Below, piece by piece: positions 24,996 to 46,997 of a stretch of DNA of 64,000 bases; position 1 is the first letter of the stretch, and each line of letters opens with the position of its first letter. Below the pieces are notes generated by a model that was not told where the DNA came from, ran no database searches, and was given only the letters and a program-made list of their open reading frames with translations. This DNA comes from Prescottella subtropica (GTDB taxonomy: Bacteria; Actinomycetota; Actinomycetes; Mycobacteriales; Mycobacteriaceae): assembly GCF_005434945.1 (NCBI RefSeq), contig NZ_SKCH01000004.1, positions 62,001 through 126,000 on the forward strand. The letters run 5' to 3'. Made by a program: the position numbers and the translations under genes.

Positions 24996-26792
24996 TCACG
25001 GTCGGTTGCACGGGGAGAGTGAGGAGCGTACGACCGGCTCGTCCACCAACCCCTGCACTGCCACGACCGCTTCCCCGTCGACGGCCGGTTCGGTGAGCCG
25101 GTAGACGATTTCGACGGTTTTGCCTTGTGGGATGGGGAACTGTAGGTCGTAGACGGGGTGGCCGAGTTCGTTTCCGGTGAAGGCGAATCCGGGTTTTCCG
25201 TCGATGGTGGCTTTCTCGAGTTTCGCGCCGCGGGTGGCGACGAGGGACAGGTTGGTGAGGTTGGTGCCGGCGGGTGCGCCTCGCGGGTTGTCGTACATGC
25301 CGGCGACGTAGTTCGTGTAGTCGCCGTCCGGCAGCGTGTTGGTGAGGCGCACGGTGACGGTGGTGCTGCGGGTGTCTCCGGTACAGGTGTCGCCGCGGTA
25401 CTCGATCTCGCGTTGCAGGTAGTAGTCGAGTTTGTTGCCGCCGAGATTGTTCACGACGACCCCGGCGTACGGCGCGTCGGTGTCCGGGATCGTGTGGCCC
25501 AGAGTTGTTTCGGCGAGTACCGACTGCTCGCTGGGCTGGGAGCTCCACACCGCGATCCGTCCTTCGCCGGCGGCCTTGCCGAGGGCCTCGAGGAGCGCCT
25601 GCGGATCGGAGATCCGTCCGGTCATCTTTTCGACGACCTTCGCGGCAACGGTCTGCAGATAGCGTTTGCGGGCGGTGTTGTTGTCGGCGAACCGCGAGTA
25701 CGCCGTCGATTCGGTGAGTTCGACGACGTTGTCGGCGGTGATCTTCTCTCCGTCGGGCATCGTGACCGGTCCGACGACGCCGAGCACGTAGCCGAGAGCG
25801 ACCGGGTCTGTCGCGATGACACCGTCGACGCGTTCCCCGGATTCCTGCTCCCACAGCGACTGCCAGATCTGTGCCGCGTACGGGAAGTGGGAACTGACGT
25901 TGCTGTTCCGGAAGTCCGTGGTGGGGCGGCTCTGCCCGTACATGCGCTCGAAGTCCGGCCCCAGATCGAGTGGTTGTTTGCCGTCGACCGACAGCTCCCG
26001 GTTGCTGGCCAACTCGTCGACCCGGATACCGCCGTCGACGGCACGCAGTTCGCCGAAACCGCCGAGCAGTCCGCCGGTGCCGCGGGCCTCGGCGTTCGTC
26101 TGGAATCCGAGGAAGTAGGACCGCGGCCCGTCCGCACCCAGCATCGCGGGGGCGATCTCGGCGGCCGTCGACACCGCACCGAGCATCGACGACAGTTCCT
26201 CCGTCCGCGTCACCAGTTCGGCGCGGGCGTCGTCGACCGGTCCGACGAACGAGCCCGGCACGGATGCCGCACGCGCCTCCCATTCCTGTGCCGCGGTAGC
26301 GGCTTCCGTGACGTCCGGTGCGGCATCCCGTAATGCCTGCACGTTGATCCGGGCGCCGTCGAGGAGGAGCTGATCCGGGGAGAGTGCGGCCCCTGCACGC
26401 ACCGCCGGCGGAAGCACCTCGGAGGTGAGGCCGTCGACGACGTCCGCCATCTCCCGTGTCGTCCGGAACGGGTCGCCGATCCCCGGGATCGTGGCGGCCA
26501 CCCGCCAGGCGACCGACTCGGTTCCCTGCCTTGCCTGTCCCGCATACCGATCGGCCTCCCCGGCCGCATCGGCGGCACCGGCCGTGTCCCCGGCCAGCAG
26601 GGCATCCTTCGATGCCAGTGAAAACTCTGCTGCTCGTTCGAGATTCAACTTGACCTGGGATGCCTCGTACGCGGTGTATCCGGCCCAGGCGGCGACTGCG
26701 GTGAGCCCGACTCCTGCCCCGACCGCGATGCGGCGCCGACGCTTCCGCGCCCCACGCGCCGGCGGTGCCGAAGCCGATTCGATCTGATCCAC
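24996..26792 (-). CDS. DUF4012 exported protein
   Basis: A 598-residue protein from GTG 26792 with AAGGGAA nine bases upstream. It has a basic N-terminus (ARGARKRRRR), one membrane helix (IAVGAGVGLTAVAAWAGYTAY), a helical region, and then the DUF4012 core: GPRSYFLGFQTNAEARGTGGLLGGFGEL, VDGVIATDPVALGYVLGVVGPV, and YNNLGG-like VVNNLGGNKLDYYL. The RGTGG part resembles the LytR-CpsA-Psr neighbour proteins of actinobacterial EPS loci. Its role is unknown. It heads the - strand operon with wzy and GT2 and is divergent from the peptide synthetase. Confidence 0.85.
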   Translation of the reverse strand: MDQIESASAPPARGARKRRRRIAVGAGVGLTAVAAWAGYTAYEASQVKLNLERAAEFSLASKDALLAGDTAGAADAAGEADRYAGQARQGTESVAWRVAATIPGIGDPFRTTREMADVVDGLTSEVLPPAVRAGAALSPDQLLLDGARINVQALRDAAPDVTEAATAAQEWEARAASVPGSFVGPVDDARAELVTRTEELSSMLGAVSTAAEIAPAMLGADGPRSYFLGFQTNAEARGTGGLLGGFGELRAVDGGIRVDELASNRELSVDGKQPLDLGPDFERMYGQSRPTTDFRNSNVSSHFPYAAQIWQSLWEQESGERVDGVIATDPVALGYVLGVVGPVTMPDGEKITADNVVELTESTAYSRFADNNTARKRYLQTVAAKVVEKMTGRISDPQALLEALGKAAGEGRIAVWSSQPSEQSVLAETTLGHTIPDTDAPYAGVVVNNLGGNKLDYYLQREIEYRGDTCTGDTRSTTVTVRLTNTLPDGDYTNYVAGMYDNPRGAPAGTNLTNLSLVATRGAKLEKATIDGKPGFAFTGNELGHPVYDLQFPIPQGKTVEIVYRLTEPAVDGEAVVAVQGLVDEPVVRSSLSPCNRP

Positions 26793-26906
26793 GCCGGAGT
26801 TCCCTTTCGATCGTCGTACCCGGGGCAGGCTAACCCGAAACTCGATTGGTCGGGCGTTCAAGTGGTGAATGGTGCACTCGCACAGTAAGTTAATTCCGTC
26901 CGTGCC
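26793..26906. promoter_or_regulatory. Divergent promoter region between DUF4012 operon and NRPS
   Basis: Only 114 bases separate the two start sites, so the glycan polymerase operon and the NRPS must share control DNA. The stretch around 26885-26905 (AGTAAGTTAATTCC) is the most AT-rich part. No operator recognised. Confidence 0.6.
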
Positions 26907-29900
26907 ATGCAGGTGGGTGCGGGTGGGCTCCGTGGACCCGTCGGGTCGTTTCCCTCGGAGTTGTCGGGACCTGCTGCACGCGAGGGGGTCGGATTGCGTC
27001 CGTTCCCGCTTTCGCCTGCCCAGAAGTCGCTCGTGGCGGCGCAGCAACTGCACCCGGACACCCCTCTGACCGTCGCCCAATACCTGGATCTACGTGGGCC
27101 GTTGCGTCGTGACGTGCTGCTCGCGGTCAGTGATCGGGCGGCGCGCGAGAGTCAATCCGGTGTGGTGGTTCTCCACGAGCACGACGGCGACATCCGGCAG
27201 AGCGCGGTGCTCGACATCGACGACGCACCACGCTTCCTCGATCTCGCTGCCGCGGATGATCCGGAATCTGCTGCGCTGGAATGGATGACGCAGCGAACAT
27301 CCCGACCGATCGACTTGTTCTCGGACCGGCTCGCCGCCTTCACTCTCATCCGACTGTCCGACGAACGGCACTTCCTGCACTGTTTCGCCCACCACGTCGT
27401 GCTGGACGGCTACGCGGCGCAGATCCTGATGGCACGCATCGCGGAGCTCTACCGGGTCCGTATCGCGGGTGCCGAGGCGCCGGCGGACCGCAGTTCCTCG
27501 GTCGCGGACATCGGGCGGGCGGCCGACGACTACGAGGCCGGTACTCGCGTCGCCGTCGACCGGGAGTACTGGCGGGACAAGACGGCACGGCTTCCGCTGC
27601 CGGTGTCGCTCGCGGACCGAACCGGTCCCGTCGTCGTTCCCGCCCGACGATCGTCCGCCGCACTCACCGGCGCAGCGTCCCGGCCCGAGGTGCCCGCGAT
27701 CGTGGCGGCCTTCGCCGTCTACCTCGCTCGGACGACGGGCACCGACGACATTGCACTGAGCCTGCCCGTCGCCGCCCGCACCACCGCTGCGCTGCGCCGC
27801 TCCGCCGGTTCGGTGTCCAACGTCGTCCCGTTGCGCATCCGGATCGATCACGAGGAGCCGTTCGGTGCGCTCGCCGACCGGGTGCGGGTGGAACTCGCGG
27901 GTGCGCTGCGCCACCAACGTTTTCGGTACGACGCGATGGTCCGTGAGTTCGATCTCGGATCGGCCGGTGCCGGTATCGGCGGGACGTTCGGTCCGGTCGT
28001 CAACATCATGCAGTTTCCGCTGCGCTACTCGTTCGGCGATGTCGACGGAGAACTGCACATCCTGTCGACCGGTCCGGTGGACGACCTGTCCGTCACGGTC
28101 TACACCGGCGGCGGAAGCGGACCTACCCGCGTGGATTTCGAGGCGAATCCCACGCGGTACACGGCGGGTTCGTTGCGCCGACACCAGCGGCGTTTCCTTA
28201 ATCTCCTCCGCGACGTCACCGCGAACCCCGACCGTCGGATCGCCGACGTGCCCCTCGGTCCTGCCGGCACGGTCGACCACGCCCCGGCCCCGGACACCGA
28301 CACGCTCCTCCTCCCGGACGCACTGACCCGGCACGCCGGACGTGCCGGGGTCGCGGTCCGCGCCGGCGCCCGCGACATCGCGTACGCCGACCTGGACGCG
28401 CATTCGTCGGCCCTGGCCCGGAAGCTGATCGCCCGCGGTGCCGGACCCGAGACGTGCGTCGCGGTCGTCGCCTCACGATCCGTGAAATCCGTTGTCGCAC
28501 TGTGGGCTGTGGCGAAGTCCGGTGCGGCCTACGTACCGGTCGACCCGAACCTTCCGATGCGGCGACTCGCGCATCACCTCGCCGGTGTGCCGCTCGCCGT
28601 CGTTGCCACCGACGGCACTGCTCTCCCGTCCGGAACCGAATCCGTCGACCTCGACGTCGACGGCTGGGCGACCACCCCGGTCACCGATGCCGACCGGCGC
28701 AGCCCGCTCCGGTCCGACCACCCGGCCTGGGTGATCCACACGTCCGGCACCAGCGGCCGCCCGAAGCCGGTCGTCGTCACACACCGCGGGGTCGCGGGTC
28801 TGGTGTCGACGCTGCGCAGTCGGTACGCGTCGGCGTCGGCGGAACGGGTGCTGCAGTTGTCGGGTCCGTGGTTCGACGCATCGATCCAGGAGGTCCTGCT
28901 CGCTGCCGACGCCGGCGCGACCCTGGTGCTCGCACCCGAGGATGCAGTCTCCGGCACCGCACTCGCGGATCTACTCCGGACGCAACGGATCACACATGTC
29001 GTGTCGGCACCGGCGCTCCTCGCCGCCACACCGGAGTCGGATCTTCCGCACCTGCGGGTCGTCGACGCCGGCGGGGAGGCACTGCCGGTCGCGGTGGCGC
29101 GTCGCTGGTCGGCCGGCCGCACCATGCTCGACGCGTACGGTCCGACGGAAGCGACCGTCGTTGCCGCGGTGAGCGATCCGATCACGGCGGAGCAACTCGA
29201 CGGCGCCACGACGGTTCCGATCGGCCGAGCCGTGGACGGTACCCGGTGCGGCGTTCTCGACCGGCGTCTGCGGATCGTGCCCGACGGTGTGGTCGGTGAG
29301 CTGTACCTGGCCGGCCCGGCGCTCGCCCGCGGCTACGGAAGGAACCCCGGTGGCACGGCCGAACGGTTCGTCGCCTCGGTTCTCGGGCCGGGCCGGATGT
29401 ACCGCACCGGGGACCTGGTCCGGCGGCGTTCCGACGGACAACTCGATTTCGTCGGGCGCACCGACCGGCAGGTCCAGGTGCGGGGAACACGGATCGAACC
29501 GGGGGAGATCGAATCGGTGCTCGCCGAGCATCCCTCGGTCGTCACCGCCGCCGTGCACGTGGACGACACCCGGCTCGTCGCCTGGGTCGCGGCCGTGGAT
29601 GTCGACCGGAAAGCATTGCACCGGTGGATGTCCGATCGTCTCCCGCGGCACCTGGTGCCGGAGCGCATCGGAGTGCTCGCCGCGCTCCCGGTGACCGCGG
29701 GCGGCAAGATCGACCGCGCGGCACTGGCCGCGGCGGAACCGCCGCGAGAGACCGGCGAGCCGGGACGTCGGCCGCGGGGACAACTCGAAGCAGCGATCGC
29801 CGACGCGGTACATCACCTGCTGGACGTCACCGATGTGCCGGCCACCGCGGACTTCTTCGACCTCGGCGGCGACTCGCTCACCGCAACGCACCTGGCCGGG

Positions 29901-32900
29901 AAGATCACGGCCACCACCGGGCATCGGGTCACGATCCGGGACGTCTTCGAGCAACGCACCGTGGCCGGGCTCGCCGCGATCGCGTCCGACCGGGACGCGG
30001 GCCCCGCTCTCGTCGCGACCCCGGACGGTCCCGTGCCGCTCGCCCCCGCGCAACGACGCCTGTGGCTCGATGCGCGGGCCCGGCCGGGGACGACCGCCTA
30101 TCACGTCCCGTTCGCGCTCGACCTCGACGGAGACCTGGCCGTCGACGCATTGCGGGCGGCACTCGGCGACGTGGTCGAACGACACGAACCGCTGCGCAGT
30201 GTCGTCCGGGTCGACGGCGACGACGTCCGGTGGCACGTACTGGATTCCGCTGCCGTGACGGAGACGTTCCGGGTCGTCGACTGTCGGGACGACCGCGAGT
30301 CGGAACGGCTGGCCGGCGAGTTCGTGGCGACGCCGTTCGATCTGGAATCCGAACCGCCCATCCGTTTCCGGCTGCACCGGGTGACTCCGCGCCGGCATGT
30401 GCTGATCACGGTCGGGCACCACATCGCTCTCGACGGCCTGTCGTTCACGCCGCTCGCCCGCGATCTCGCCGCCGCCTACACGTCCCGCTCGGCAGCGTCG
30501 GAGCCGGACTGGGCGCCGTTGACGATCCGATACGCCGACTACACCCGATGGCAGACGGCGCTCCTCGCCTCGGGCACTCGGGAGAGGGACCTGAACTACT
30601 GGCGGCCGGCTCTCGCCGACACCGCCGTCCGTCCGCTGCCACTGGATCGTGCGGCCACCGCTGCCGGACCGGTCGGCCGGGTCGGTCGTTCGTTCGATGC
30701 GCGACACCTCGAGCACCTGCGCGGCCTCGCCCGCACCCACGACGTCACCGTCTTCATGGTGCTGCACGCGGCGATCGCCGCCGTCCTCGCGGCGGTGACC
30801 GGCAGCCGCGACACCGTCGTCGGCACGGTCGACGCCGGTCGCCGGCACCCGCACCTGGATCCGCTCGTCGGCATGTTCGTCGGCACTCTCGCCCTGCGCA
30901 CCCGCGTCGAGACGGACCTGTCGTTCGCGGATCTGCTCGCCGCTGTCCGCGACACCGATATCGCCGCGTTCGCGCACGCGGAGACACCGTTCGACGAGGT
31001 GGCCGAGTTGCACGGCGGGCGGGTGCCGCTGCAGGCGATGTTCTCGTACGAGAACTTCATCGACCCGCAGGCCGATCTGCCCGGGCTGACCGTCCGCCCC
31101 CGGGAACTGTCGAGTCCGCAGGCCCGCTTCCCGCTCGAGATCGTCGCGCGGGACGGCGACGACCGGCGTCTGGATCTCGAGTTCCGTTTCGACCGGTCCG
31201 TGCTGTCCGCGAGCACCGTGCGCGTGTGGGCCGACCTCGTGTGCGCCGTCGTGGAGTCCGCGACGACCGACCCGACCGCGTGCGTGGCGGACCTCCTCGG
31301 CCGCGGCACCGTCGATCGTGGTCGCCCGGCCGCGGCCACCGCGTCGTTCCCGGAACTCGTGGCCGGGCCGATGCGCGTCGAAGCTGTGCCGGGAATCGTC
31401 ACCGACATCGCCCCGGCGGCAACCGCACTCGCGTGCCGGCTCGTCGCGCTCGGTGTCGGGCCGGGTGACATCGTCGGTGTCCTGCTGCCGCGGTCGGTGG
31501 ACGGACTCGTCGCGTACGCGGCCGTCGCGAAGGCCGGTGCCGCGTTCCTGCCACTAGACCCGGCCCATCCACCGCAGCGGGTCGCCACTGTTCTCGGCGA
31601 CGCCGCCGCCCGGCACGTGATCGCCGCTGCCGGAACCGAACTCCCCGACGGTGTCGTCCGGGTCGACCCGGATGCGGCCGGTTCCGACGACGGACCGGTG
31701 ACACCGCCGCCGCCACCGCACCCGGACTCTCCCGCGTACGTCCTCTACACATCGGGATCCAGTGGCACCCCGAAGGGGGTCGTCGTCACCCACCGGGGGT
31801 TGGCGTCCCTGGCGGTGTCGCTGCGGCGTGCCTTCGCGGTCGGTTCCGACAGCCGGGTGCTGATCGCCGCGGCCCCGGTGTTCGACGCGTCCGTCCTCGA
31901 GTACCTGCTGGTGTTCGGGACCGGGGCGGCAGGTGTCCTGCTGCCGCCGCAGATCTACGGTGGCGCAGACCTTCTCGACGTGGTCCGGGCGCGGCGCATC
32001 ACGCACTGGTTCTCGACCCCGGCGGTGGTCGCGGACCTGGACTCCGCCGACCTACCGGATCTGCGGGTGCTCGGACTCGGCGGGGAGGCGTGGTCGGACG
32101 GGATCGCGGCCCGGTGGGCCGTCGGGCGCACCCTGCTGAACCTGTACGGCCCCACCGAGTTCTCGGTGGTCGCGGCCGTCAGCTCCCCGGTCGGTCCCGA
32201 TGCGCGGGTGCCGATCGGGGCGCTCGTCGACGGTGCGGCGGCGGCAGTGCTGGACGAGCGCCTGCACCCCGTCCCCATCGGCGTGGTCGGTGAGCTGTAC
32301 CTGGCCGGTCCGGGTCTGGCTCGCGGCTACCTGGGGCGACCGGGTGCGACCGCGGCGAGGTTCGTCGCATCGACCCTCGGGCCGGGCCGCATGTACCGGA
32401 CCGGTGACCTCGTACGGAGACACCCGGACGGCCAGTACGAGTTCGTCGGGCGCACCGACACCCAACTCCAGATCCGTGGCATGCGGGTGGAACCGGGGGA
32501 GATCGAGGCCGTGCTCGCGTCGGATCCCGCGGTGCGTTCCGCGGCGGTCACGGTGCACGGCGACCTGCTGGTCGGGTACGTGACCGGTCCCGACGTCGAC
32601 CCGCTGCAGGTACGTGCCCGTGCGGCGCACCGGCTTCCGCGGCACATGGTCCCGAACGTCGTCGAACTGCTCGGCCGCCTCCCGCGTACCGTGCGCGGCA
32701 AGGTCGACCGCCGCGCACTCCCGCCGCCGCGGACCCGTCCGGGACCGGCGTCGCCGCCGCGCACACCGACCGAGGACATCGTCGGCCGGCTCGTCGCCGA
32801 GGTGCTCGCGGTCGACACGGTCGGCCGCGACGCGGATTTCTTCGCGCTCGGCGGGAACTCGCTGCTCGCGGTCCGGCTCGCGGCGCGACTCCGCCGGGCG

Positions 32901-35900
32901 CTCGGGGTGGATCTCGACGTCCGGGACATCTTCGCGCGCCCGACCGTCGAGACCCTCGCCCGTGTCGTCGCCGGCCGTGATTCCCACGGTCTGCCGGCAC
33001 TGACGGCGACGACATCCGGCGGGCACGCCCCCCTGTCACCGGCGCAGACACGACTGTGGCTGTCGAATCGCATCGACCGTTCGGCGGTCGACAACATCGC
33101 CTTCGCCGTGGAGTTCGACGGTGTCGTGGACGTCGGCGCGTGCACGGCGGCGCTGGCCGACGTCGCCGACCGGCATGCGGTGCTGCGCACGGTGTTCGCC
33201 GACACCGGCGAGGGACCGCGGCAGGTGGTGCACCCCACCGCGCCGGACGTGCGCATCGTCGAGACCGGCGACGCGGACCGCGACCTCACCGAACTGGCCG
33301 GAGCCGGCTTCGATCTGGCCGCGGAACCACCGGTGCGGGTGACGTTGCTGCACTGTGGCCCCGAACGATCCGTCCTCGCCGTCGTCGCCCACCACATCGT
33401 GCTGGACGGGCTGTCCATGACACCCCTCGTGCGGGATTTCGCGCAGGCCTACTCGGCTCGGCGGCGCGGGCGCGCACCGGAGTGGGCGCCGCTGCCCGTC
33501 ACCTTCACCGACTACGCCCACTGGCATCGGACCGTACTCGGCGACCCGACGGTCGACGGCAGCCTCGCCCACCGGGAGCTCGGGTTCTGGCGGGACGTGC
33601 TGACGCCGCCCCCCGCGCCGTCGGCGCTGCCGGCCGACCGGTCCGGCACCGACGGCGACGGTCCCGCGGGCACAGTTCCTTTCACGATCCCCGTCGACCT
33701 GCACACCGCGCTCACCAAGGTGGCCCGCGAGTACGACGCCACCGTGTTCATGGTTCTGCACGCCGCCCTGGTGGTGCTGCTGTATCGCCTCGGCGGTGCG
33801 GACGACATCACCATCGGCACCCCCGTCTCGGGACGCAGCGAACCGGTACTCGACGACGTCGTAGGCATGTTCGTCGGTACGGTGCCGCTGCGGTGCACCG
33901 TCGACGGCGGCAGCACGTTCGGCGATCTGCTCGACCGGATCCGGGCCCGTGACGTCGAGGCCTTCGCGCACACCGAACTACCGTTCGACGACGTCGTCGC
34001 GCACCTCGGTCTCGGTGGCCCGGGGCACCGGCATCCCGTGTTCCAGGTGCTGCTGGCCTACGAGACCGCCGTGCCCACCACCCTCACGCTGCCCGGTCTG
34101 GACGTGACGGTGCGTGAACTGCACAGCGGCCGGGCACGTCTCGACCTCGAGGTGACGATCCGGGAACGGGAACCCGAACTGGGGGAGCCCGCCGGACTGG
34201 ACGGGACGGTGACGTTCGCCCGGCAACTGTTCGACCGGTCGACCGTGTCGCGGTGGACCGAATGGCTGGTCCGGATCCTCGCGACCGTCGCCGACGACCC
34301 GGGCACGGTCGTCGGCGGCATCGGACTCGAACCGTCGAGCGTCCTGGACGCCGGTGCGGACGCGGTGACGACAGCGGCGACCTCCCTCGGTGATCTGTTC
34401 GCACAGCAGGTGCGCGAGCGGCCCGATGCGACGGCCGTCGGCACCGGTACGGGGGCGGTCAGCTATCGCGACCTCGACACCCGCGCGCGGGCGATCGGGG
34501 CGGCACTGGTGGATTCCGGTGTGCGACAGGGTGATCTGGTGGCCCTCGCGCTGCCCCGATCGGTGGACCTGATCGCGGCGATGATCGCGGTCATCGGCGT
34601 CGGCGGCGCATATCTTCCGCTGGACGTCACACACCCCGTGCCGCGTCTGACCGCCGTCCTCGACGCGGCACGCCCTCGACTCGTACTCACCGACGGGACC
34701 GTCGAGATCCCCGGCCGGGCACTGCACCTCGACACCGTCACCGCTCCGGGAACGGCCGAGTTCGCCGGCCCGGTCGCACCCGGACAGGCCGCGTACGTGA
34801 TCTTCACGAGCGGATCGACGGGTACCCCGAAGGGGGTGACGGTGCCGCACTCCGCGGTGCTGGCGCTGCTCGCGAACACCCGGGCCGGTTTCGGTTTCGG
34901 CGCCGACGACGTGTGGACGATGTTCCACTCCCCGGCATTCGACTTCTCGGTGTGGGAGATCTGGGGTGCACTCGCGACGGGCGGCCGCCTGGTGCTCGTC
35001 GATCCCGACGTCGCCCGCAGTCCGCGCGAGTTCCGAGAGTTGTTGGTCGGGGAGCGGGTGACCGTGCTCAACCAGACCCCGACCGCGTTCGGCCAACTCG
35101 CCGCGGTCGACGGGAACCCGGACGATCTGGCGGTCCGACTGCTGGTGTTCGGTGGTGAAGCCCTCGACGTGCGGTCGATCCGGCCGTGGCTGGACCGACA
35201 TCCGAACGTGCATGCGGTCAACATGTTCGGTATCACCGAGACGACGGTGCACGCCACCTGGTCCGACATCGGTCCGGGCGGCTCCGGGCACAGCACGATC
35301 GGATCGCCGATCCCCGGATTCCGGATCGAACTACTCGACGCCGCGCTGCGCCCGGTGCCGCGGGGGGTGATCGGCGAGCTGTACCTCGCCGGGCCGCAGA
35401 TCGCGCACGGCTACCGGAACCGCCCGGGACCGACCGCCGCCCGGTTCGTCGCGGGACCGGGTGGCGTGATCCGCTACCGCACCGGGGATCTGGCGCGGGT
35501 GTGCGGCGACGGCGGCCTCGAATACCGTGGCCGCTCCGACCGGCAGGTGCAGATCCGGGGACATCGGGTCGAACCCGGGGAGGTGCGGGCAGCGCTCCAC
35601 CGGATCACGTCCGGGTCCGACGCCGCCGTGGTCGTCGACGACGGCCGGCTGATCGCCTACGTCGTCACCACGGACCCGCTCGACGACCGGCGGATCGTGC
35701 GGGCACTGCGCAGCGAACTGCCCGGCTACCTGGTGCCGTCGGCCGTCGTCGCGGTACCGGAACTTCCGGTGACGTCGAACGGGAAGCTCGACACGGCCGC
35801 GCTGCCGGCACCGTCTCGGACACCGGGCTTCTCGGGGTCGGCCGCACGGACCCCGGTCGAGGATCTCGTGATCGACGCGTACCGCGACCTGCTCGGCACC

Positions 35901-38900
35901 GACCGGATCGACTCCGACACCGACTTCTTCGATGCCGGCGGCAACTCGCTGCTCGCGACCCGACTGGCCGGTCGACTGCACGCCGTCACCGATGCACGGG
36001 TCGACGTCCGGGACGTGTTCGAGCAGCCGACCGTGCACGACCTCGCCCGTCTCCTCGACCGCCGGGCCGGTGCGCCCACGGAACTGGCGGCGCCGGTACC
36101 GTCGGCGCCGCTCGCCACGCGTGGCCCGCTCGCGCCGCCGCAGCGCCGCCTGTGGTTCCTGCAGCAACTCGACCCGCAGTCTGCGGCAGCGAATCTCCCG
36201 CTGGTTCTCACGTTCGGCGGACGTGTCGACGTCGACGCGCTGTTCGCGGCACTGCGGGACGTCGTCGATCGGCACCGGAGCCTGCGCACCGGGTACTCCG
36301 TCGACGGCACGGAGCAGGTGGTGCTCCCGGTCCCGGACCTCGCGCCGGCCGTGACGGACATCCCCGGTGACGCCGTCGACGACGCCGTACGGAACCTGAC
36401 GCGTACACCGTTCGATCTGGCGACCGGCGTGCCGATCCGGGTCCGGTTGTACCGCACCGCACCCGAGCGGTACCGACTCGTCCTCGTCGTCCACCACATC
36501 GCCGTCGACGAGTGGTCGATGTCGGTGCTGCTGCGAGATCTGCTGCACGCCTACGGCCGCCGCGCCGAGGGCGGACCGGTCGCCCTGCCCGCACCGGGCA
36601 TCGAGTACCTCGACTACGCACGGTGGCGGGCCGGTACCGCCGACGACGGCCTGCCCCACTGGCGCACGACTCTCGCCGGTGGCGCCGCCCGGTCCACGCT
36701 GCCCTACGACCGGCCGCGGACGGTACCCGGCGGGGGACCCGCGTCGACCGTCCGACTCGTCGTCGACGCCGACCGCGCCGTCGCACTGGCCGACACCGCA
36801 CGGCGGCACCGGATCACGACGTTCATGCTGGTGCACGCGGCGCTCGCGGCCACACTGGCCCGGCACGCCGACCAGGACGACATCGTGATCGGCACGGCGA
36901 CGTCCGGACGCGGACACCCCGACCTCGACGGCACCGTCGGCATGTTCGCGTCGACGGTACCGCTGCGCACCCCCGTCGACCCGGACGCGACCGTCGCACA
37001 GTTCCTCGACGACGTCCGCCGCCGCGACGTCGAGGCGTTCACCCACGCCGACACCCCGTTCGAGACGATCGTCGATGCCCTGGCACCCGATCGAACGTTC
37101 GACCATCACCCGCTGTTCCAGGTCGCGCTGTCGGTGCGGCAGCCGACCACCGGGCGGACCGAGTTGCCCGGGCTGACGGTGTCGGTGGCACCCGGACCGG
37201 CCGAGACGGTGCAGTTCGATCTGCACCTGACCGTCACCGAACACGGCGACACGTTCGACTTCGAATTCGCCTACGACAGTGCCGTGTACGACGACGCGGC
37301 CGTCACCGCATTCGCGCGCCGCACCGTGTCGTTCCTCGACGCGGCCGTCGCCGATCCCGACGGCCGCATCGGGGACGTCGACCTGCTGACGAGTGCCGAA
37401 CGCGTGCACCTGACGCCGGCATCCGGCACCGACAGCGCTCCGGACACCCTGTGGCAGGCACTGTCCCGGGGGATGCGCATCGCACCCGACGGGGTCGCGG
37501 TCACCGGGGCGCGAACCCTGACCTACCGGGAACTCGTCGTCCGGGCCGAGGCACTCGCCTCCGCGCTGCACGCGCACGGGGCCCGGCCCGGCGTCGTCGT
37601 CGCCTGCCTGCTGGAGCGGTCGGTCGAAGCGGTGGTGACGATCTGGGCGATCGCCCGCACCGGCGCGGCCCCGGCCGTGATCGACGCCGCCAACCCACCG
37701 CAGCGGATCGCCCGCATGCTCACCGGTTCCGGGATTCGCGTCGGGGTCGGCACCGTCGACCGCATCCCGAGCCTGCCCGGCGCGATCACGTGGTTCGACC
37801 CGTCCGCAACCGGAACGGTGCCGGTCCCGGAACCGACCGCGGCACCGGATCACCCGGCGGCCGTGGTGTTCACGTCGGGCACCACCGGACGACCCAAGGG
37901 CGTCGTCCTCACCGGACGCGGGATCGGCGCCCTGACCGCCGACCTGCGGGAGACGTTCGAGGCCGGGCCGGACTCGCGGATGCTGCATGCTGCCGCACCG
38001 GGATTCGACATGGCCCTCGTCGAGATCCTGGTTGCGGGCACCTCGGGGGCGAGGCTGGTCGTCGCCGACACCGACACGTACGCCGGTGCGGCACTGACGG
38101 ATCTGCTCGAGCGGGAGCGGATCACGCACGCCTGCCTCACCCCGTCGGTTCTCGCATCCGTTGCCCACCGGCAACTCCCGCACCTGCGGACTCTCATGCT
38201 CGGCGGCGAACCGCTACCCGCGGAACTGGTACGCGAATGGGTGGACGGGCGACGCCTGTTCAACGCGTACGGACCGGCCGAGGCGACCGCGTTCGCGACG
38301 TACGCCGGCCCGCTCGATCCCGGATCCCCGGTTGTGATCGGCACGCCCGCAGCGGGTGTCGACGCCGTCGTCCTCGACCGCCGGCTGCAACCGGTGCCGA
38401 CGGGGGTCGTCGGCGAGCTGTACCTCGGCGGTGACCGGATCGCCGCCGGCTATCTCGGCGCGCCGGGGCGTACCGCCGAACGGTTCGTCGCCCGCGCCGA
38501 CGGCCGGCGCTGGTACCGGACCGGTGACCTGGTGCGGTGGCGCGGTGCCGGCGACGGCCGATTCGTGCTCGCGTTCCACGGCCGCGCCGACACCCAGGTG
38601 AAGGTCCGCGGGGTGCGGGTCGAGCCGGCCGAGATCGACGCACACCTGCAGGCGCTGCCCGGCATCACGGCGTCGGCCACGATCGTCCGCGACACCCGCC
38701 TGGTGTCGTACGTGGCACCGGAGGGTGCCGACATCGCCGCGCTCCGCCGCGCACTGGCCGAGCGGCTGCCGCGCTACCTGACTCCGTCCGCCGTGGTCGC
38801 CGTCCGGGAGATTCCCCTGACCACGCACGGCAAGGTCGACACCGCGGCGCTCCCGGCCCCGGCTGCGCCGTCGGCGCTCGCCGCGGTCGATCCGAGGGAA

Positions 38901-41900
38901 CGACTCGTCGCACGGGTGTTCGCCGACGTGCTCGGGCATCCGGTGGGACGCGACGACGACTTCTTCGCCCACGGCGGCGACTCGTTGCTCGCGACGACCG
39001 TCGTCGCGCGACTGCGGGAGACGACCGGCCGCGACGTTCCGCTGCGTGCACTGTTCACCGATCCGACCGTGTCGGGGCTGGCACGGGCCCTCGACGGTAC
39101 CGCCGACACGGACCCCGGCCCGGTCTCCCGCCCGCGGTCGTCGCGAATACCGTTGAGTCGCAGTCAACGAAGACTGTGGGCGGTGCTCAGCAGTGCGGGA
39201 ACCGATACCTACCGGCCGTCGGTGCGACTCGACTTCCGCGGACCGCTCGACGTCGCCGCCCTGCACGCGGCGTGCCGCGACGTCGTGGACCGGCACGAGG
39301 CGCTGCGCACCCGCATCGTGGACGGACCCGACGGGCCGTTCGCCGTGATCGACGAAGCCGACGAGATCACCGCCGATTCCGCGGCCCGCATGTCGTTGCA
39401 CCGCACGGACACCGGACACGCTCTCGACGTGACCTTCGACCACCTGGTGGTGGACGGCGGTTCGGTCGGTGTCCTGTTCGGTGACCTGCTCACGGCGTAC
39501 CGGGCCCGGCTGGGCGGCACCGGCCCGGACTGGGCGCCGCTGCCGGTGCAGTACACGGATCATGTGCTGTGGCAGCGGGGCCGCGACCTCGACCCGCAGC
39601 GGGACGAGTGGCGCCGGGTGCTGGCCGGTGCCGACCCGGCGATCCTGCCGACCGGGCACGGGCACGGGCCGGCGTCCGAGGCCTCGACGATCCGGTTCGC
39701 GGTGCCGCCGCGGGTCGTCCGTCGACTCGACGCGCTGGCACGACGTTTCGGCGCCACCGATTTCATGGTGCTGCACGCGGTCCTCGCCGCGGTCCTCGCG
39801 CGCCTGACCGACCAGCGCGACGTCGTCGTTGCCGCGGTCGTGTCGACGCGGCGGCACGCCCAGGTCGCGGCGGTCGTCGGACTGTTCGTCGAAACACTCG
39901 TCCTGCGTGCACAGGTCACGCCGTCGACGACGTTCGGTGGGCTGCTCGCGCAGGTGCGGGATACGGACGCCGCCGCGTGGGACCGGGTGGACGTGCCGTT
40001 CGACGACATCCTCGACACGGCCGGGATCGCCGCACCCCAGGTGGCGCTCGCACTGCAGGACTTCACCCCGCCGGCGGTCCGGATCGGGGATCTCGAGGTG
40101 ACCGCGTTCGAGACGGGTTCCGCAGTCGCGGATTTCGAACTCGGGTTCACCTTCGCGCGTACCGGGTCCGGTGGCTACGACGCGGTCCTCACGGCCGACA
40201 CGGCGCGGGTCGACCCCGCCGTCGCCGGGGCGCTCGCCGACCGGTTCGCGGCGGCACTGACCGGTGTCGATGCCGACCTGACGGTCGGCGAACTGCCACT
40301 CGAGCCGACCGCACCGATGAAGGGTGGGGTGGCGCCGCCGGCGGCGATGCTCGCCGATCTGCTGCGCGCGACCGCCGCCACCCATCCGGACCGGGTCGCG
40401 GTGGTCGACGGTGACCGTCGGCTCACGTACCGCGAGCTCGACGCACGCTCCGATGCCGCGTCCGGCCGACTCGGGACCGCCGCCGGCATCGTCGACATCG
40501 GTGCGTCCCGCAGCCTCGACCGCATCGAGATGCTGTGGGCGGTCGCCAAATCCGGCCGCGCATTCGGCTGTGCACCGGACCGGGGCCCGGTGGGCCCGGT
40601 GGACCCGTCGACACCGGACGCCCTCGCCTACGTCGTCACGACCTCCGGCTCGACCGGTGTGCCGAAGACGGTCGGGGTACCGCATTGCGGGCTCGCGGCG
40701 CTCGCGACGGCGGCCCGGGACCGCTACCGGGTGGCGCCGGGAGACCGGGTGCTGCACGGCTACGACCCGGTGTTCGACGCGGCGATGCTCGAGATCCTGC
40801 TGGCCCACACGTCGGGGGCGACCCTGGTGATCGCCCCCGACGACGTGGTCGCGGGCGAACCGCTGCGGGCACTGCTGCGGGAGCAGCGGATCACGCATTT
40901 CCTGTCGACACCCGCGGTGCTGGCATCGACGGATCCGGGCGGGCTCGACGACCTGCGGGTCGTCGCGAGCGGCGGCGAGGCACTGCCCGCCGAACTCGCC
41001 GACCGCTGGCGATCCGGCCGGATCATGCTGGACGCGTACGGGCCCACCGAGACGACGGTGGCAGTCACGGTCGCGGACGTGGACGGCCGCGGCGGTATCG
41101 GCTCCCCGATCCCGGGCACCACCGTGCTCGTCCTCGACAGCCGGTTGCGGCCGGTCCCGGTCGGCGGTGTCGGCGAACTGTACGTCGCCGGAGACGGACT
41201 CGCGCGCGGCTACCTCGGTGCCCCCGGTGTCACTGCCGCCCACTTCGTCGCCGGACCGCACGGCCTCGGCCGGATGTACCGCACCGGTGACCGGGTCCAG
41301 GTCCTGCCCGACGGTCGCACGATCCACCTGGGCCGCACCGACCGGCAGGTGAAACTGCGTGGTATCCGCGTCGAACCGGGGTACGTGGAGTCGGCGCTGC
41401 TGGGGTGCGCGCGGGTCCGTCAGGCCGCGGTACTGGTCCGGGACGCCGTGATGATCGCGTTCGTGGTGGGGGAGGACCTGTCGGGTCCGGCGGTGCGGCA
41501 GCAGGTTCGGGACACCCTCCCGGCGGCGCTCGTTCCGTCCCGGATACACGTCGTGGACGCGGTGCCGACGACCCGCAGCGGCAAGGTGGACCTCGCGCGC
41601 CTGACCGTGCTCGCCGACGCACACGCCGGGGCGGTGTCGCGTCGACCGCTCACCGCGACCGAGGACGCCGTGGTGCGAGCGGTCACCGACGTGCTCGGAC
41701 ACACCGTCGACATCGACGCCGACTTCTTCAGCGGCGGCGGGCACTCGTTGGCTGCGGTCACCGTCGCCGGCCGACTTGCAGCCCTGCTGCACCGGGACGT
41801 GACCGCCCGCGCGGTCCTGCAGGCGCCGACCCTCGCGGTGCTGGCGCGGGACCTGGACGCGCCGTCCGCGGAACACCCGGCGGCGGACCCGTCGGCACCG

Positions 41901-44900
41901 GAACCGATCGCACGCGCCCAACGGCGGCTGTGGCTGCACCAGGCCACCGAACCCGAATCATCGCTGTACAACGTGCCGTTCGTGTTCGACGTGGACGGCG
42001 AACTGGACGTCGACGCGTTCACCGCCGCGGTCACCGACGTCGCGGCGCGGCACCGCCCGCTGCGGACCGTCCACCCGGACGGCGCACACCCGATCGTGCT
42101 GGAATCGGTCGACGTCACGGTCGTGGCGGACGCCACCGGCACGGATACCGTCACCGCGTTCGTCCGGCAGCCGTTCGACCTGACGACGCGTCCGCCGCTG
42201 CGGGTCGGGATCTTCCGCACCGGACCGGTGTCCTGGACGCTCGCGGCGGTCGTCCACCACATCGCCTTCGACGGCGGTTCGGCGGCACCGCTGCTGCGGG
42301 ACCTCGTGTCCGCCTACACCGCCCGTGCCGGCGGCGCGGAACCCGCATGGTCGCCGCTGCCCGTGCAGTACGGCGACTACGCGGCCCGGCAGGCCGCGCT
42401 GCTCGGCGATCCGTCCGACCCGTCGAGCACGGCAGCCCGGCAACTCGACTACTGGACGGGGGTGCTCGCCGACGCCCCGGCCGGTCCGCTCGACCTTCCG
42501 GCCGACCGGCGTCGGCCCGCCCGCCCGACCCACCGCGGGGATGCCGTCCACGGACGACTCGACCCGGACCGTCACGCCGCGCTGCTCGAACTGGCACGGG
42601 CGCACGGTGTGTCGACGTTCATGGTGGAACACGCGGTGCTCGCGGTCCTGCTGGCACGGTGCGCCGGCACCGGTGACGTCACCGTCGGCACCGTCGTCGA
42701 CGGCCGCACCGACACCCGGTTGCGCGACCTGGTGGGCATGTTCGTCGGAACCGTCGCGCTCCGCACCCGGATCGATCCGGCCCAGCCGTTCGACGCGTTC
42801 CTCCGCACTGTCCGCGACGTCGACCTCGGCGCCTTCGCACACGCCGACGTCCCGTTCGAGGACGTCGTCGCACGGATCGCCCCGGCCCGGAACCCGGCCC
42901 ACCACCCCGTCTTCCAGGTGCTGCTCGCCCACGGACATGCGACGCCGGAGCCGCCGATCCTGCCGGGCATCACGGTCCGCGATGCGAGTACCGGGGCACC
43001 CCCGGCCCAGTTCGACCTCACGTGGGACATCACCGAGCACCCCGACGCCGCCGGCATCGACGTCCGGGTGGTCTTCGCGACGGACCTGTTCGACACCGAC
43101 ACCGTCGGGCGCCTGCTGGACATGTGGATCGGGCTGCTCGCGCAGGTGTGCGACGACGCGGCCACCCCGGTCGGCGACCTGCACCTGGCGGCAGCGGAGT
43201 GCACCGTGCGGCCCGCGGCACCGCCACGGCGCCTGCCGGACCTGCTCGCCGACACCGTGCGCCGGTTCCCGGACCGATTCGCGCTGCGCGACGGGGAGCG
43301 TCGGTGGACGTACCGCGACCTGGACACCGAAACACGTGCTCGGGCAGCGGAGTTCCACAGACTCGGAGTGGGCGCCGGTGATGTCGCCGCCGTCGTCGCG
43401 TCCCGGGGCGCGGACTGGGTGCTGGACGTGTGGGCCCTGACCCGGCTCGGGGCGGCATGGGTGCCGATCGATCCGCGGCACCCCGTCGGACGACGCAGTC
43501 GCATCCTCGCCGACGCCCGCGCCGGACACCGGGACCGTGACCTCGCATACCTACTGTTCACCTCGGGGACGACGGGCCGCCCCCGCGGTGTCGCGGTCAC
43601 CCACAGCGGTCTCGCGGCACTCGTCGATCTCCAGTCCCGCACCCTGGGGGTCACCTGCGACGCCGTCATCCTGCAGGCCGCGACACCGACGTTCGACGCG
43701 GCCGTCTTCGAACTGCTCGCCGCCCACGCACACGGCGGCGAACTGGTGTGCGCCGGCGACGCCCGGTACGCGGGACCGGATCTGCAGGCGCACATCGAGA
43801 CCACCGGGATCACGCACGCCAACCTGACCCCGAGCGTGCTGCGCACCCTGGACCCCGACGCGCTGCCGCGGCCGTTGACGATCGTGGCCGCCGGGGAACC
43901 CCTGACACCGGACGTGGCCCGCGACTGGGCACACCACCGCCTGCACAACGGGTACGGTCCCACCGAATGCACGGTCGGCGTCACCTGCAGCGATGCACTC
44001 GGAAACGGGCCGGTGACGATCGGCCGGCCACTCGCGGGCGCGATCGTCCGGGTGCTCGACGGACGCCTCCGCCCGGCCCCGGTCGGGGTCGTCGGCGAAC
44101 TGTACGTGGGTGGTCCGGGTGTGGCCCGCGGCTACCACGGCCTGCCGGGCCCGTCGGCGGTGCGTTTCGTCGCCGACCCGCACGGCGCCCCCGGGACGCG
44201 GCTGTACCGGACCGGCGACCTGGTGCGGGCCCGCACGGACGGCACCCTCGAATTCGTGGGCCGCGCCGACGGTCAGGTGCAGCTCAACGGGATTCGGGTC
44301 GAGCCGGGTGAGGTGGATGCCGTGCTGACCGGACACCCCGACGTGGCAGCTGCGGTGACACGGGCGCGCTCCGGGCCGTCCGGTGACCCGGTACTCGTGT
44401 CGTACGTCCTGCCGCGACTCGGGCGTTCGGTCGACACGGCGGCGCTGCGCCGCCACGCCGCCTCCGCACTGCCCCGGCATCAGGTACCCGCCGCGATCGT
44501 CCTCCTGGATCGAATGCCGTTGACATCCAGTGGGAAACTCGACCACGACGCACTTCCGATCCCGGACCTCCGTGTGGAACCGGTCGCCGGTGAACCACCG
44601 CGCGGCCCCGTCGAATGCTCGGTGGCGGCCGCGATGGCGGGCACCCTGGGATGTACGGCAGTGTCGCGGGACGTCGGCTTCTTCGACCTCGGGGGCACGT
44701 CGATGGGGGCGGTGCGGTTCGCGAGCACCCTGCGCGACGAGTACGGCCTCACGATCTCGCTGACCTGGCTCACCGACGACGACACGGTCGCCGGCCTCGC
44801 AGCCCGCATCGGCGACGACGCCGCGGACCCGCTGGCGACACTGGTGCCGTTGCGCGCCACCGGCACCGGCACCCCGCTGTTCTGCGTGCATCCGGTCGGC

Positions 44901-45494
44901 GGTCTCGCCTGGTGCTACCGCGACCTCGCCCCGCATCTCGGGGTGCGTCCGCTCTACGGACTGCAGGCCACTGCACTGCCGGCGATCCCGGACACCCTGA
45001 CCGATCTGGCACGGCACTACGTCGACCACGTCGTGTCCGTGCAACCGGCGGGCCCGTACCACCTGCTCGGCTGGTCGCTCGGCGGCACCATCGCGCACGA
45101 GATGGCCGTGCAGCTGCGCCTGCGCGGGCACGAGGTCGCGTCGCTGACGCTGCTCGACTCGCTGCCACCGGACGTCGTACCGTCCGACCGACCGGTTCCG
45201 GAATCGCCGGTGCCGCCGGATGATCGGACGATCGGCGCGGATGCGGCGACGGTGCAGCACATCCACGAGATCGGTGCGGCCCTCGAGGTGGTTGCGCGGA
45301 AACACCTGCCGCGCAGCTACGACGGCGACGTGCTGCTGTTCGTCGCGGGCGAGGAGGACGGTCGGCACCGGCTGGCCGACCTCTGGCGGCGGCACGTCAA
45401 CGGTGTCGTCGCGGAGACGACGCTGCCGGTGACACACGGCGCCATGCTGTCCGAGGTGGTGCTGCGCGAGGTGGGGCGAAGTCTCGAGGAATGA
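26907..45494 (+). CDS. Six-module nonribosomal peptide synthetase with terminal thioesterase
   Basis: About 6195 residues in one frame. Domain order by motif: (C-A-T) six times, then TE. Six adenylation cores (TSGTSG, TSGSSG, TSGSTG, TSGTTG, TSGSTG, TSGTTG), six carrier Ser sites (GGDSL, GGNSL, GGNSL, GGDSL, GGHSL, GGTSM) and six condensation motifs can be seen, with no epimerisation, methylation or reductase domain. It starts with a condensation domain that has no upstream carrier, as in lipopeptide starter modules. The TE has GWSLGG, LLDSLPP and a late THGAML His. ATG 26907 has no clear ribosome site; TTG 26994, after GAGGGGG, is the better-supported start and begins just before the first domain ([10 protein letters not shown]). 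Product unknown: a hexapeptide, probably N-acylated. No MbtH-like, PPTase or fatty acyl-AMP ligase gene is in the window. It is divergent from the wzy operon and followed by the Wzz/BY-kinase. Confidence 0.95.
26994..29990 (+). other. NRPS module 1: starter C - A1 - T1
   Basis: C1 core HHVVLDG is intact and precedes everything, so its donor is free acyl-CoA/ACP or it is idle. By-eye specificity code of A1 (positions 235, 236, 239, 278, 299, 301, 322, 330, 331, 517): D A Q V D G A V V K. I know no residue for this code; the second Asp, in VVDAGGEAL, is notable. Carrier Ser in LGGDSLTA. Confidence 0.75.
30030..32985 (+). other. NRPS module 2: C - A2 - T2
   Basis: C2 core GHHIALDG is intact. 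A2 code by eye is D A L F G G L V V K, a hydrophobic pocket without a known match. Its ANL start is shortened: the usual DRxAL segment is replaced by [18 protein letters not shown]. Carrier Ser in LGGNSLLA. Confidence 0.72.
33020..36065 (+). other. NRPS module 3: C - A3 (Thr predicted) - T3
   Basis: C3 core AHHIVLDG is intact. A3 is the most canonical adenylation domain ([46 protein letters not shown]), giving code D F W N V G M V H K, which matches the known threonine codes. Carrier Ser in AGGNSLLA. Confidence 0.85.
36120..39105 (+). other. NRPS module 4: C - A4 - T4
   Basis: C4 core is HHIAVDEWS, with Glu where Gly is usual after the Asp; both His residues are kept. A4 code by eye is D M V C M G A A F K, not known to me. 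The YGPTE motif is YGPAEAT. Carrier Ser in HGGDSLLA. Confidence 0.72.
39140..41870 (+). other. NRPS module 5: variant C - short A5 - T5
   Basis: C5 core reads [10 protein letters not shown]: the first His of HHxxxDG is Asp while the catalytic second His is kept, and the surrounding domain is about 100 residues shorter than its siblings. A5 lacks some 40 residues between the second and third core motifs ([10 protein letters not shown] runs directly into the TSGSTG region). Code by eye is D A L L A G A V A K. Carrier is GGGHSLAA. Confidence 0.72.
41900..45494 (+). other. NRPS module 6: C - short A6 - T6 - TE
   Basis: C6 core HHIAFDGGS is intact. A6 is also shortened before its TSGTTG motif, has PRG instead of PKG, and AAGEPL instead of GGEAL; code by eye is D A F N V A G V G K. 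T6 reads LGGTSMGAV. The type I thioesterase (about residues 5985-6195) carries GWSLGG, LLDSLPP and THGAML and would hydrolyse or cyclise the chain. Confidence 0.78.
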
Positions 45495-45569
45495 GCGGTA
45501 GCGAGCGGTGAGAACGACTCGCACATAAGGTGTTTGCAACTGTTTCTAACGAAAGTCGGGGTTCGTGGA

Positions 45570-46997
45570 ATGGAAGTACAGGACTACCTGCGCATCGTGC
45601 AGTCGCGCTGGAAGATCATTGCGGCGGTGACGTTGCTCGGTGTGCTCGCGGCGCTGGTGGTCTCGCTGCTGTCCACCCGCATGTACCAGGCCTCGGCGAG
45701 GCTGTTCGTCTCCACGTCCTCCGGGGCGTCGGTCAACGAAGCGTTCCAGAGCAACAGGCTCTCGCAGGAACGGGTGGCGTCGTACACCAGCCTGCTCAGC
45801 GGAACGACGCTGGCGCAGCGCACCCTCGACGCGCTCGGCGACGACACGATGACGGCGAAGGCGCTGGCGGGCGAGGTCAAGGCGTCGTCGACACCCGACA
45901 CGGTCCTCATCAAGCTCTCCGTCACCGACCCCTCGGCCGAACGTGCCCGTGACCTGGCGAACGGGCTCGCAAACGAGTTCGTCTCCATGGCAGCGGAATA
46001 CGAGACGGTGGAACCGGGCACGCCGCCGATGGCGCGGGTGATCGTCGAACAGTCGGCGGTCACACCGGATGCGCCGGTCAGCCCGCGGACCGAGCGCAAC
46101 CTCGCGCTCGGACTCGTCGTGGGTTTGCTCGGCAGTATCGCGCTGGCCGTGCTCCGCGACCGCCTCGACAACACCGTCAAGTCCCGGGAGGTTCTCGACG
46201 AACTCGCCGGCGTCGGACTGGTCGGCACGGTGCCGTTCGACAAGGACCGGGAACAGAAGGCGGCCATCGCATTCCAGGACGGCTACTCGGCCGGCGCCGA
46301 GGCGTTCCGCGAGCTCCGGACCAACCTGCAGTTCCTCGAGGTCGACAATCCGCCGCGGGTCATCGAGGTCACCAGTTCCCTTCCCGGCGAGGGCAAGACG
46401 ACGACCGCGATCAACCTGACGCTGGCGCTCGCGGAGTCCGGATACACGGTGTGTCTGGTGGACGCGGATCTGCGTCGCCCACGTGTCGCGAAGTACCTCG
46501 ATCTGATCGGGTCGGTCGGTATGAGCACGGTCCTCTCGGCGCAGGCCGACCTCGACGACGCACTGCAGTCGTCGCCGTTCCCGAACGTGTCGGTACTGGC
46601 CTCCGGCGCGTTGCCGCCCAATCCCAGTGAGCTGCTGGGGTCGTCCCACGCCGAGACGTTGCTGAGCGATCTGCGTTCGCGGTTCGACTTCGTCGTCATC
46701 GACGCGTCGCCGCTGCTACCGGTCACCGATGCGGCGGTACTGGCAGCGAAGGTGGACGGTGCGCTCGTCGTCGTCCGGCACGGAAAGACCAAGCGGGACG
46801 AGGTGTCCCGGGCGATCGGCAACCTGCGCGGTGTCGGTGCGACCGTGCTGGGCACGATCCTGACGATGACCCCGTCGAAGGGGCAGGGCGGGTACGAGTA
46901 CCGGTACTACTACGACGCGGACGCTCCGGTCGAGAAGACGGTCGGGACTGTGCCGCAGGTCGATCCGGCCCCGATGGCCGCGCACAGCCGAATCTAG
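45570..46997 (+). CDS. Fused Wzz chain-length regulator / BY-type tyrosine kinase
   Basis: A 475-residue protein from ATG 45570. The Wzz part has a membrane helix at each end (IIAAVTLLGVLAALVVSLL and LALGLVVGLLGSIALAVL) around an extracytoplasmic coiled region. The kinase part has Walker A SLPGEGKTTTAINL (about residue 272), Walker A' CLVDADLRRPR (about 298), Walker B FVVIDASPLLP (about 376), and a C-terminal tyrosine cluster EYRYYYDAD as autophosphorylation site. It controls polymer length and export. It lies 75 bases after the NRPS stop on the same strand, so they may share a transcript, and ends at a strong hairpin. Confidence 0.93.
   Translation: MEVQDYLRIVQSRWKIIAAVTLLGVLAALVVSLLSTRMYQASARLFVSTSSGASVNEAFQSNRLSQERVASYTSLLSGTTLAQRTLDALGDDTMTAKALAGEVKASSTPDTVLIKLSVTDPSAERARDLANGLANEFVSMAAEYETVEPGTPPMARVIVEQSAVTPDAPVSPRTERNLALGLVVGLLGSIALAVLRDRLDNTVKSREVLDELAGVGLVGTVPFDKDREQKAAIAFQDGYSAGAEAFRELRTNLQFLEVDNPPRVIEVTSSLPGEGKTTTAINLTLALAESGYTVCLVDADLRRPRVAKYLDLIGSVGMSTVLSAQADLDDALQSSPFPNVSVLASGALPPNPSELLGSSHAETLLSDLRSRFDFVVIDASPLLPVTDAAVLAAKVDGALVVVRHGKTKRDEVSRAIGNLRGVGATVLGTILTMTPSKGQGGYEYRYYYDADAPVEKTVGTVPQVDPAPMAAHSRI

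Follow-up and report, generated by a model that had tools for sequence, protein, structure and literature searches.

A putative two-gene unit of peptide synthetase and DUF4012 protein in a capsule-type locus of Prescottella and other rhodococci

Serotype capsule loci of Gram-positive bacteria combine conserved flanks with exchangeable sugar cassettes. A locus of this kind lies in the window, a stretch of 64,000 nucleotides from Prescottella subtropica (part of a 4.4 Mb draft genome; genus Prescottella, the Rhodococcus equi group), where a six-module nonribosomal peptide synthetase (NRPS) is encoded with a divergent DUF4012 gene on one side and a Wzz/BY-kinase gene on the other, within a Wzx/Wzy exopolysaccharide (EPS) locus. 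This layout, proposed in an earlier annotation made from the sequence alone (the first-pass annotation), is upheld here and recurs in 12 of the 14 genomes of the genus. As in other Gram-positive Wzx/Wzy serotype loci, the priming enzyme, Wzz/BY-kinase and phosphatase are constant, and the glycosyltransferases, Wzx, Wzy and pyruvyl transferases are swapped; unlike in those loci, the constant section includes an NRPS.

Two further groups of described systems come close to parts of this locus. The LytR-CpsA-Psr (LCP) glycopolymer transferases (TagT/U/V, Cps2A and A. oris LcpA) share with the DUF4012 protein a fold, as predicted for the latter, and a locus with a lipid-linked polymer pathway. The DUF4012 protein differs from them in having no sequence-level match, in a PRD arginine that is not conserved, and in an extra helical stalk and beta sandwich. 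LcpA is likewise linked genetically to its acceptor, a surface protein that it modifies (PMC6381275). The glycopeptidolipids of mycobacteria, glycosylated on allo-Thr, contain D-residues along with an amino alcohol, and their sugars are single units (PMC11278827). They resemble the product considered here, predicted from genes alone, as envelope peptidolipids; the window system differs from theirs in lacking an epimerase (E) domain, in possessing a thioesterase and in the presence of a polymer pathway.

The genome itself encodes a closer comparison. A second NRPS (contig C45, ~91.5-120 kb; L171, L172) has 9040 amino acids, seven modules and two E-like domains, and its adenylation codes read, with the meanings that we assume for them, Leu-Ser-Leu-(E-like)-Val/Ile-Thr-(E-like)-Ile-Phe. 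The order of the lipoheptapeptide of R. equi and R. opacus matches this reading (Frankfater et al., 2020, as cited in PMC11278827 and PMC8877126). The fit ties the known lipid to the C45 protein, which is probably its synthetase, and not to the NRPS between DUF4012 and Wzz (hereafter the slot NRPS); the lipoheptapeptide is like the predicted slot product in being an acyl peptide from the same genus, and differs in its order, which fits the C45 enzyme. The slot NRPS product is not described in the open-licence literature searched. Among open-licence full texts, judged by title and start of abstract, no listed paper connects an NRPS with a polysaccharide locus of rhodococci, and none connects DUF4012 with LCP. 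For R. equi 103S, 11 NRPS and EPS genes in a horizontally acquired region are reported, and the passages concerned draw no link between them (PMC2947987).

Gene order across the family indicates that the slot NRPS and DUF4012 form one conserved unit of many rhodococci, which usually sits among the constant genes of a serotype-like Wzx/Wzy capsule locus. The features that make up this unit in the window, and its downstream neighbor, are the following.

26994..45494, plus strand: six-module NRPS (open frame from 26907), likely start TTG 26994
27006..28262, plus strand: starter condensation domain C1, assigned to the N-acylating class from its nearest structures and its grouping with other N-terminal C domains
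30033..44879, plus strand: modules 2-6, with C domains starting at 30033, 33021, 36126, 39144 and 41904
44880..45491, plus strand: thioesterase region with a GWSLG motif
24996..26792, minus strand: DUF4012 protein (Pfam), likely start 26792
26857..26892, no strand assigned: conserved block in the divergent promoter region (TTCAAGTGGTGAAT ... CGCACAGTAAGTTA), a candidate regulatory site or operator
45570..46997, plus strand: Wzz/BY-kinase (Pfam), 75 bases past the NRPS stop

Within the genus (14 Prescottella genomes, among them P. agglutinans, G001; P. equi DSM 20307, G004; and P. defluvii Ca11, G002), DUF4012, Wzz and the priming enzyme are present in the same 12 genomes, and NRPS sequence lies between DUF4012 and Wzz in all 12, although the frame is in pieces in G003 (a 79% complete genome). 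The two remaining genomes (G012 and G013) have none of the three genes and no slot NRPS. The slot NRPS is kept in 12/12 locus-bearing genomes, and the NRPS at unrelated places in close relatives, which the first-pass annotation had named as evidence against its view, was not found inside the genus. When the 39.9-kb neighborhoods of ten relatives were compared, all ten contained the priming enzyme, DUF4012, NRPS, Wzz and phosphatase, and just two (G011 and G001) had the full sugar cassette of the window (two GT4 glycosyltransferases, two pyruvyl-type genes, Wzx, GT2 and Wzy); no GT2 or Wzy homologue was found within the stretches of the other eight. By its gene content, the locus is of serotype type, with the NRPS in the constant part and the sugar genes exchanged between species.

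The wider sample comprised 401 genomes of the family, in which g-numbers denote anonymous genera or clades: g1 is the Prescottella clade in the pairing counts, g6 includes Rhodococcus sp. H36-A4, g23 includes R. wratislaviensis, R. rhodnii, R. globerulus and R. opacus, g27 is R. ruber, and g29 includes Mycobacterium. Pairing was counted among the matches listed (150 DUF4012 and 93 C1 matches, with those of Wzz; of the lower C1 matches two were included). A divergent starter C domain lies beside DUF4012 in 80 of the 150, distributed as 15/18 in g27, 30/32 in g23, 23/43 in g6 and 10/12 in g1, the last becoming 12/12 when G002 and G005 are added from the reading of their neighborhoods. Outside these four rhodococcal clades, 45/45 listed matches have no divergent NRPS beside DUF4012 (g29 0/17, other genera 0/28; a C domain lies 4.5 kb off in one of the 28, G038). 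By named loci, an NRPS is found at 33 of 80 DUF4012 loci, every one in Rhodococcus or Prescottella.

The distance between DUF4012 and Wzz falls into steps in this sample, and the gaps that were sampled hold single-gene NRPS with three adenylation (A) domains in g6, with 4, 5, 7 or 8 in g23, and with six in g27. In all 23 NRPS read, a thioesterase-type motif lies close to the C-terminus and there is a module whose code is DALL(A/G)GA; the Thr code DFW(N/D/S)(I/V)GMVH occurs in 19/23 and is missing from all four 3-module forms. Nine genomes carry two DUF4012 genes, each with an NRPS of its own. Of the 13 close g6 pairs, 11 have Wzz on the far side of DUF4012, and in two g23 genomes (G092 and G244) DUF4012 and NRPS are still adjacent though Wzz is >1 Mb off. 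The two are likewise neighbors in three drafts (G105, G128 and G158) with Wzz on another contig, which need not mean distant. The neighborhood of a split pair was read in one genome (Rhodococcus sp. P-2, G092), where the pair sits among nad, bio and other genes and the EPS locus, with Wzz, UDP-glucose 6-dehydrogenase (UGD), priming enzyme and a Wzy homologue, lies elsewhere in the genome. The gene-order comparison suggested in the first-pass annotation bears out an NRPS that is fixed across the genus and, in two further rhodococcal clades, among most members; its steadiest partner is DUF4012 rather than Wzy/Wzz.

Some arrangements of the pair depart from the common form. In G005 and G002 (L024/L026), a five-module NRPS and DUF4012 are both strongly diverged (DUF4012 52-53%), in combination with an ordinary priming enzyme and dcd, a pattern that would fit exchange of the pair as a block. 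Ten g6 genomes (L040, L041, L047 and L048) have 1.07-1.22 kb between DUF4012 and the NRPS C domain, versus 0.3 kb elsewhere. R. opacus ATCC 51881 (L051-L054) carries two DUF4012-NRPS pairs separated by ~60 kb; several priming enzymes are encoded in the interval and next to the pairs. G200 (L066) has two starter C domains of this family ~15 kb apart, the second in a three-module NRPS with slot-type codes; the NRPS of the pair looks duplicated around DUF4012 and Wzz.

Divergence of the two proteins was compared by pairwise distances among ten Prescottella genomes. DUF4012 correlates with C1 at r 0.94, with Wzz at 0.76 and with the priming enzyme at -0.14, and the partial correlations are 0.78 for DUF4012-C1 (0/5000 permutations) and 0.26 for Wzz-C1 (p 0.06). 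With the two most divergent left out (nine genomes), these values are 0.65 (0/3000) and 0.31 (224/3000). The thioesterase end of the NRPS, which adjoins Wzz, also tracks DUF4012 (0.91) more than Wzz (0.80).

The open frame at 26907-45494 is a single frame of 6195 amino acids on the plus strand, containing six condensation (C), six A and six carrier (T) domains in the order C-A-T, followed by the C-terminal thioesterase. Neither a methyltransferase domain nor an additional C-type (epimerase) domain turned up in the domain scan of this NRPS, in which C-A is repeated six times. In 7 of 11 aligned Prescottella sequences, the position matching window 26994 holds a TTG or GTG start preceded by a purine-rich (GAGGGGG-like) site (the other four align differently), for which reason we consider that translation most likely begins at TTG 26994 and not at 26907. 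The gap to DUF4012 would then probably be ~201 bases, in place of the 114 bases given previously.

Codes of nine letters, taken from motif-anchored columns, are DAQVDGAVV, DALFGGLVV, DFWNVGMVH, DMVCMGAAF, DALLAGAVA and DAFNVAGVG for A1 to A6; we take DFWNVGMVH to specify Thr, following the meanings presumed for such codes. Among solved structures, C1 comes closest to the RzmA starter C domain, followed by ObiF1 and the CDA starter C domain; the second C domain differs. In a tree without support values, 23 first C domains make up a single clade; adjacent to it are the N-terminal C domains of four other NRPS from the genome of the window, and all N-terminal C domains stand apart from the sampled internal ones. 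A starter-class C domain thus precedes the first A domain, as starter-C lipopeptide NRPS require. Because the first C domain is nearest to starter C domains, unlike the second, the slot NRPS product is probably an N-acyl peptide.

The predicted model of the DUF4012 protein (pLDDT 85.6) consists of a helical stalk, an LCP-fold domain (residues ~214-429) and a C-terminal beta sandwich. The fold was recognized by VIA-align matches of residues ~214-429 to LCP structures; in the Pfam scan, the protein matches DUF4012 alone and not PF03816. Mapped by motif order, the candidate catalytic arginines R237 (45/45), R367 (44/45) and R375 (45/45) are conserved. According to this model, DUF4012 contains the fold of the glycopolymer transferases, and we think it rather likely that the protein handles a lipid-linked glycan.

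That the NRPS and DUF4012 act in one process is, in our judgment, likely. As to what this process is, the explanation that we put first, tentatively and at somewhat less than even chances as a whole, is that an N-acyl peptide works with DUF4012 in the envelope, possibly as the capsule acceptor. The slot NRPS would make an N-acylated peptide of 3 to 8 residues (six in the window, with Thr third), and the thioesterase would release it for transfer into the cell envelope. There the DUF4012 protein, probably membrane-anchored and outward-facing, would act through its LCP-fold domain with the lipopeptide on the undecaprenyl-linked polysaccharide supplied by the neighboring genes. An acceptor or anchor role of the lipopeptide is the most likely single specific role, doubtful as it is when taken by itself. 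Three points favor it: the attachment of lipid-linked glycans to acceptors is what LCP enzymes do; the target of an LCP enzyme of A. oris is a surface protein to which the enzyme is genetically linked (PMC6381275); and a constant anchor and a variable glycan would match the constant and variable halves of the locus. In its fullest form, which is slightly more doubtful again, the lipopeptide anchors the rhodococcal capsule in the outer lipid layer, DUF4012 as a divergent LCP enzyme forms the link to the Wzy polymer, and the anchor stays constant as the serotype is exchanged. How capsules are retained on mycolic-acid bacteria is, to our knowledge, not settled. If true, the linkage would be unlike peptidoglycan, phosphatidylglycerol or lipid-A anchoring, and an NRPS with an LCP-fold protein makes a concrete two-gene hypothesis for the holding of a capsule. 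DUF4012, a little-studied gene of actinobacterial polysaccharide loci, would gain a structural identity from the predicted model, and a family of rhodococcal NRPS a likely role in the cell envelope.

Several observations weigh against this explanation. R. coprophilus (G118) and Rhodococcus sp. 105337 (G062) kept DUF4012, Wzz and a priming enzyme after loss of the NRPS: only 658 and 798 bases, respectively, separate DUF4012 from Wzz, and tblastn in both gaps (L031 and L030) detected NRPS thioesterase remnants with stops (E to 1e-14 in G062, 1.4e-6 in G118) and weak remnants of the NRPS N-terminus, also with stops, the traces of an NRPS deletion that spared the adjacent capsule genes. DUF4012 also occurs without the NRPS in 20/43 of the g6 matches and in the 45/45 listed outside the four clades, and the peptide is thus dispensable for its basic function. 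The LCP structures match at a root-mean-square deviation of ~3.5-5 Å and ~10% identity, and profile comparisons of DUF4012 with LCP were not significant. By motif reading, the PRD-arginine position, which we assume to be that of R149 of A. oris LcpA and to be essential there (the LCP arginine motifs being likewise assumed), holds R in 13/45 DUF4012 proteins. Beside the relocated pair of G092, no Wzx, Wzy, Wzz or priming gene was recognized among 20 proteins scanned, and the only glycosyltransferase-type gene recognized near it is PMT_2/YkcB-like (L049:16318-18300, ~3 kb from DUF4012). Finally, the co-divergence may partly be due to linkage. The idea that peptide and glycan are made together stands in part: it agrees with the fixed NRPS and with a starter C domain of lipopeptide type, and is strained by the two g23 pairs distant from Wzz and by the two losses.

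About as likely as the acceptor or anchor role, and thus equally doubtful, is a free surface-active lipopeptide (a biosurfactant or adhesion factor) that is co-expressed with the capsule genes, DUF4012 belonging to the capsule and the shared divergent promoter being a regulatory convenience. The starter C domain agrees with this, as do the NRPS losses with retention of the capsule genes and the 51-77-base gap between NRPS and wzz, which suggests one transcript; many rhodococcal NRPS are predicted lipopeptide makers (PMC5550956). Co-regulation alone does not, however, predict that the NRPS stays with DUF4012 in split or rearranged loci, or that second DUF4012 copies have their own NRPS in nine genomes.

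Less probable, we believe, is that DUF4012 processes or displays the lipopeptide itself, for instance as an outer-face carrier, with an LCP fold that has lost glycan transfer. Pairing and co-divergence are indeed with DUF4012, the PRD arginine is not conserved, and one genome has the pair away from Wzx/Wzy-type genes; yet in g29 and Bifidobacterium DUF4012 adjoins Wzz without this NRPS, and R237 and R375 are conserved, with R367 in 44/45.

We regard as improbable a peptide attached to the repeat unit as a substituent, for instance by an amide bond to glucuronate or by an ester bond via Thr. The position in an EPS locus and the UGD gene and Thr module of the window are compatible with it, but the sugar cassette, including the pyruvyl transferases and in three relatives also UGD, changes while the NRPS stays, and a starter C domain at the N-terminus speaks for acyl capping. 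A tie of the peptide to one pyruvylated, glucuronate-containing repeat unit, as the first-pass annotation had it, is therefore unlikely, and Thr of module 3 does not hold as a general attachment point, since the 3-module forms read have no Thr code.

Neutral linkage, in which the NRPS landed in the locus once and was carried along without functional connection, would fit the abundance of NRPS genes in these genomes and the two natural losses, and is very improbable given a pairing kept in four clades with 3-8 modules, paired duplicates and joint relocation.

The other genes of the window locus are listed below. The previously named neighbors were recovered, except that the second pyruvyl transferase falls below the Pfam cut-off and Wzy has no Pfam match.

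12868..13455, plus strand: dcd, conserved left boundary (Pfam DCD), in the stretches of 9/10 relatives (the tenth, G008, begins at the priming enzyme)
13790..15541, plus strand: priming sugar transferase (Pfam Bac_transf), true start probably ~200 bases downstream
15639..16964, plus strand: UDP-glucose 6-dehydrogenase (Pfam), not constant
16826..18022, plus strand: GT4 glycosyltransferase, variable cassette; frame overlaps UGD, true start later
18019..19050, plus strand: GT4 glycosyltransferase, variable cassette
18648..20123, plus strand: pyruvyl transferase, variable cassette (PF04230, 54.7 bits), true start probably near 19050
20117..21214, plus strand: pyruvyl-transferase-like protein, variable cassette (PF04230, 20.0 bits, below the cut-off of 25.3)
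21211..22722, plus strand: Wzx flippase, variable cassette (Polysacc_synt_3)
22733..23908, minus strand: GT2 glycosyltransferase, variable cassette; frame overlaps wzy, true start later
23608..24900, minus strand: putative Wzy polymerase, variable cassette, no Pfam match
47341..47889, minus strand: low-molecular-weight protein tyrosine phosphatase, right boundary (Pfam), in the stretches of 10/10 relatives

The priming enzyme, glycosyltransferases, Wzx and Wzz/BY-kinase occur together here, as in Wzx/Wzy EPS or capsule loci. No UGD homologue was found in the stretches of G010, G005 and G002. The putative Wzy has 35% identity over 405 amino acids to a gene in the EPS locus of G092. On the far side of the NRPS, the first-pass spacing of 75 bases to Wzz/BY-kinase on the same strand was confirmed, and the interval is 51-77 bases in 11/11 Prescottella read; no terminator-like or promoter-like site was found within window 45300-45700, and Wzz/BY-kinase is probably co-transcribed with the NRPS. 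The block at 26857-26892 was absent from G002 and G005 among 11 aligned Prescottella, partial in three and clear in six.

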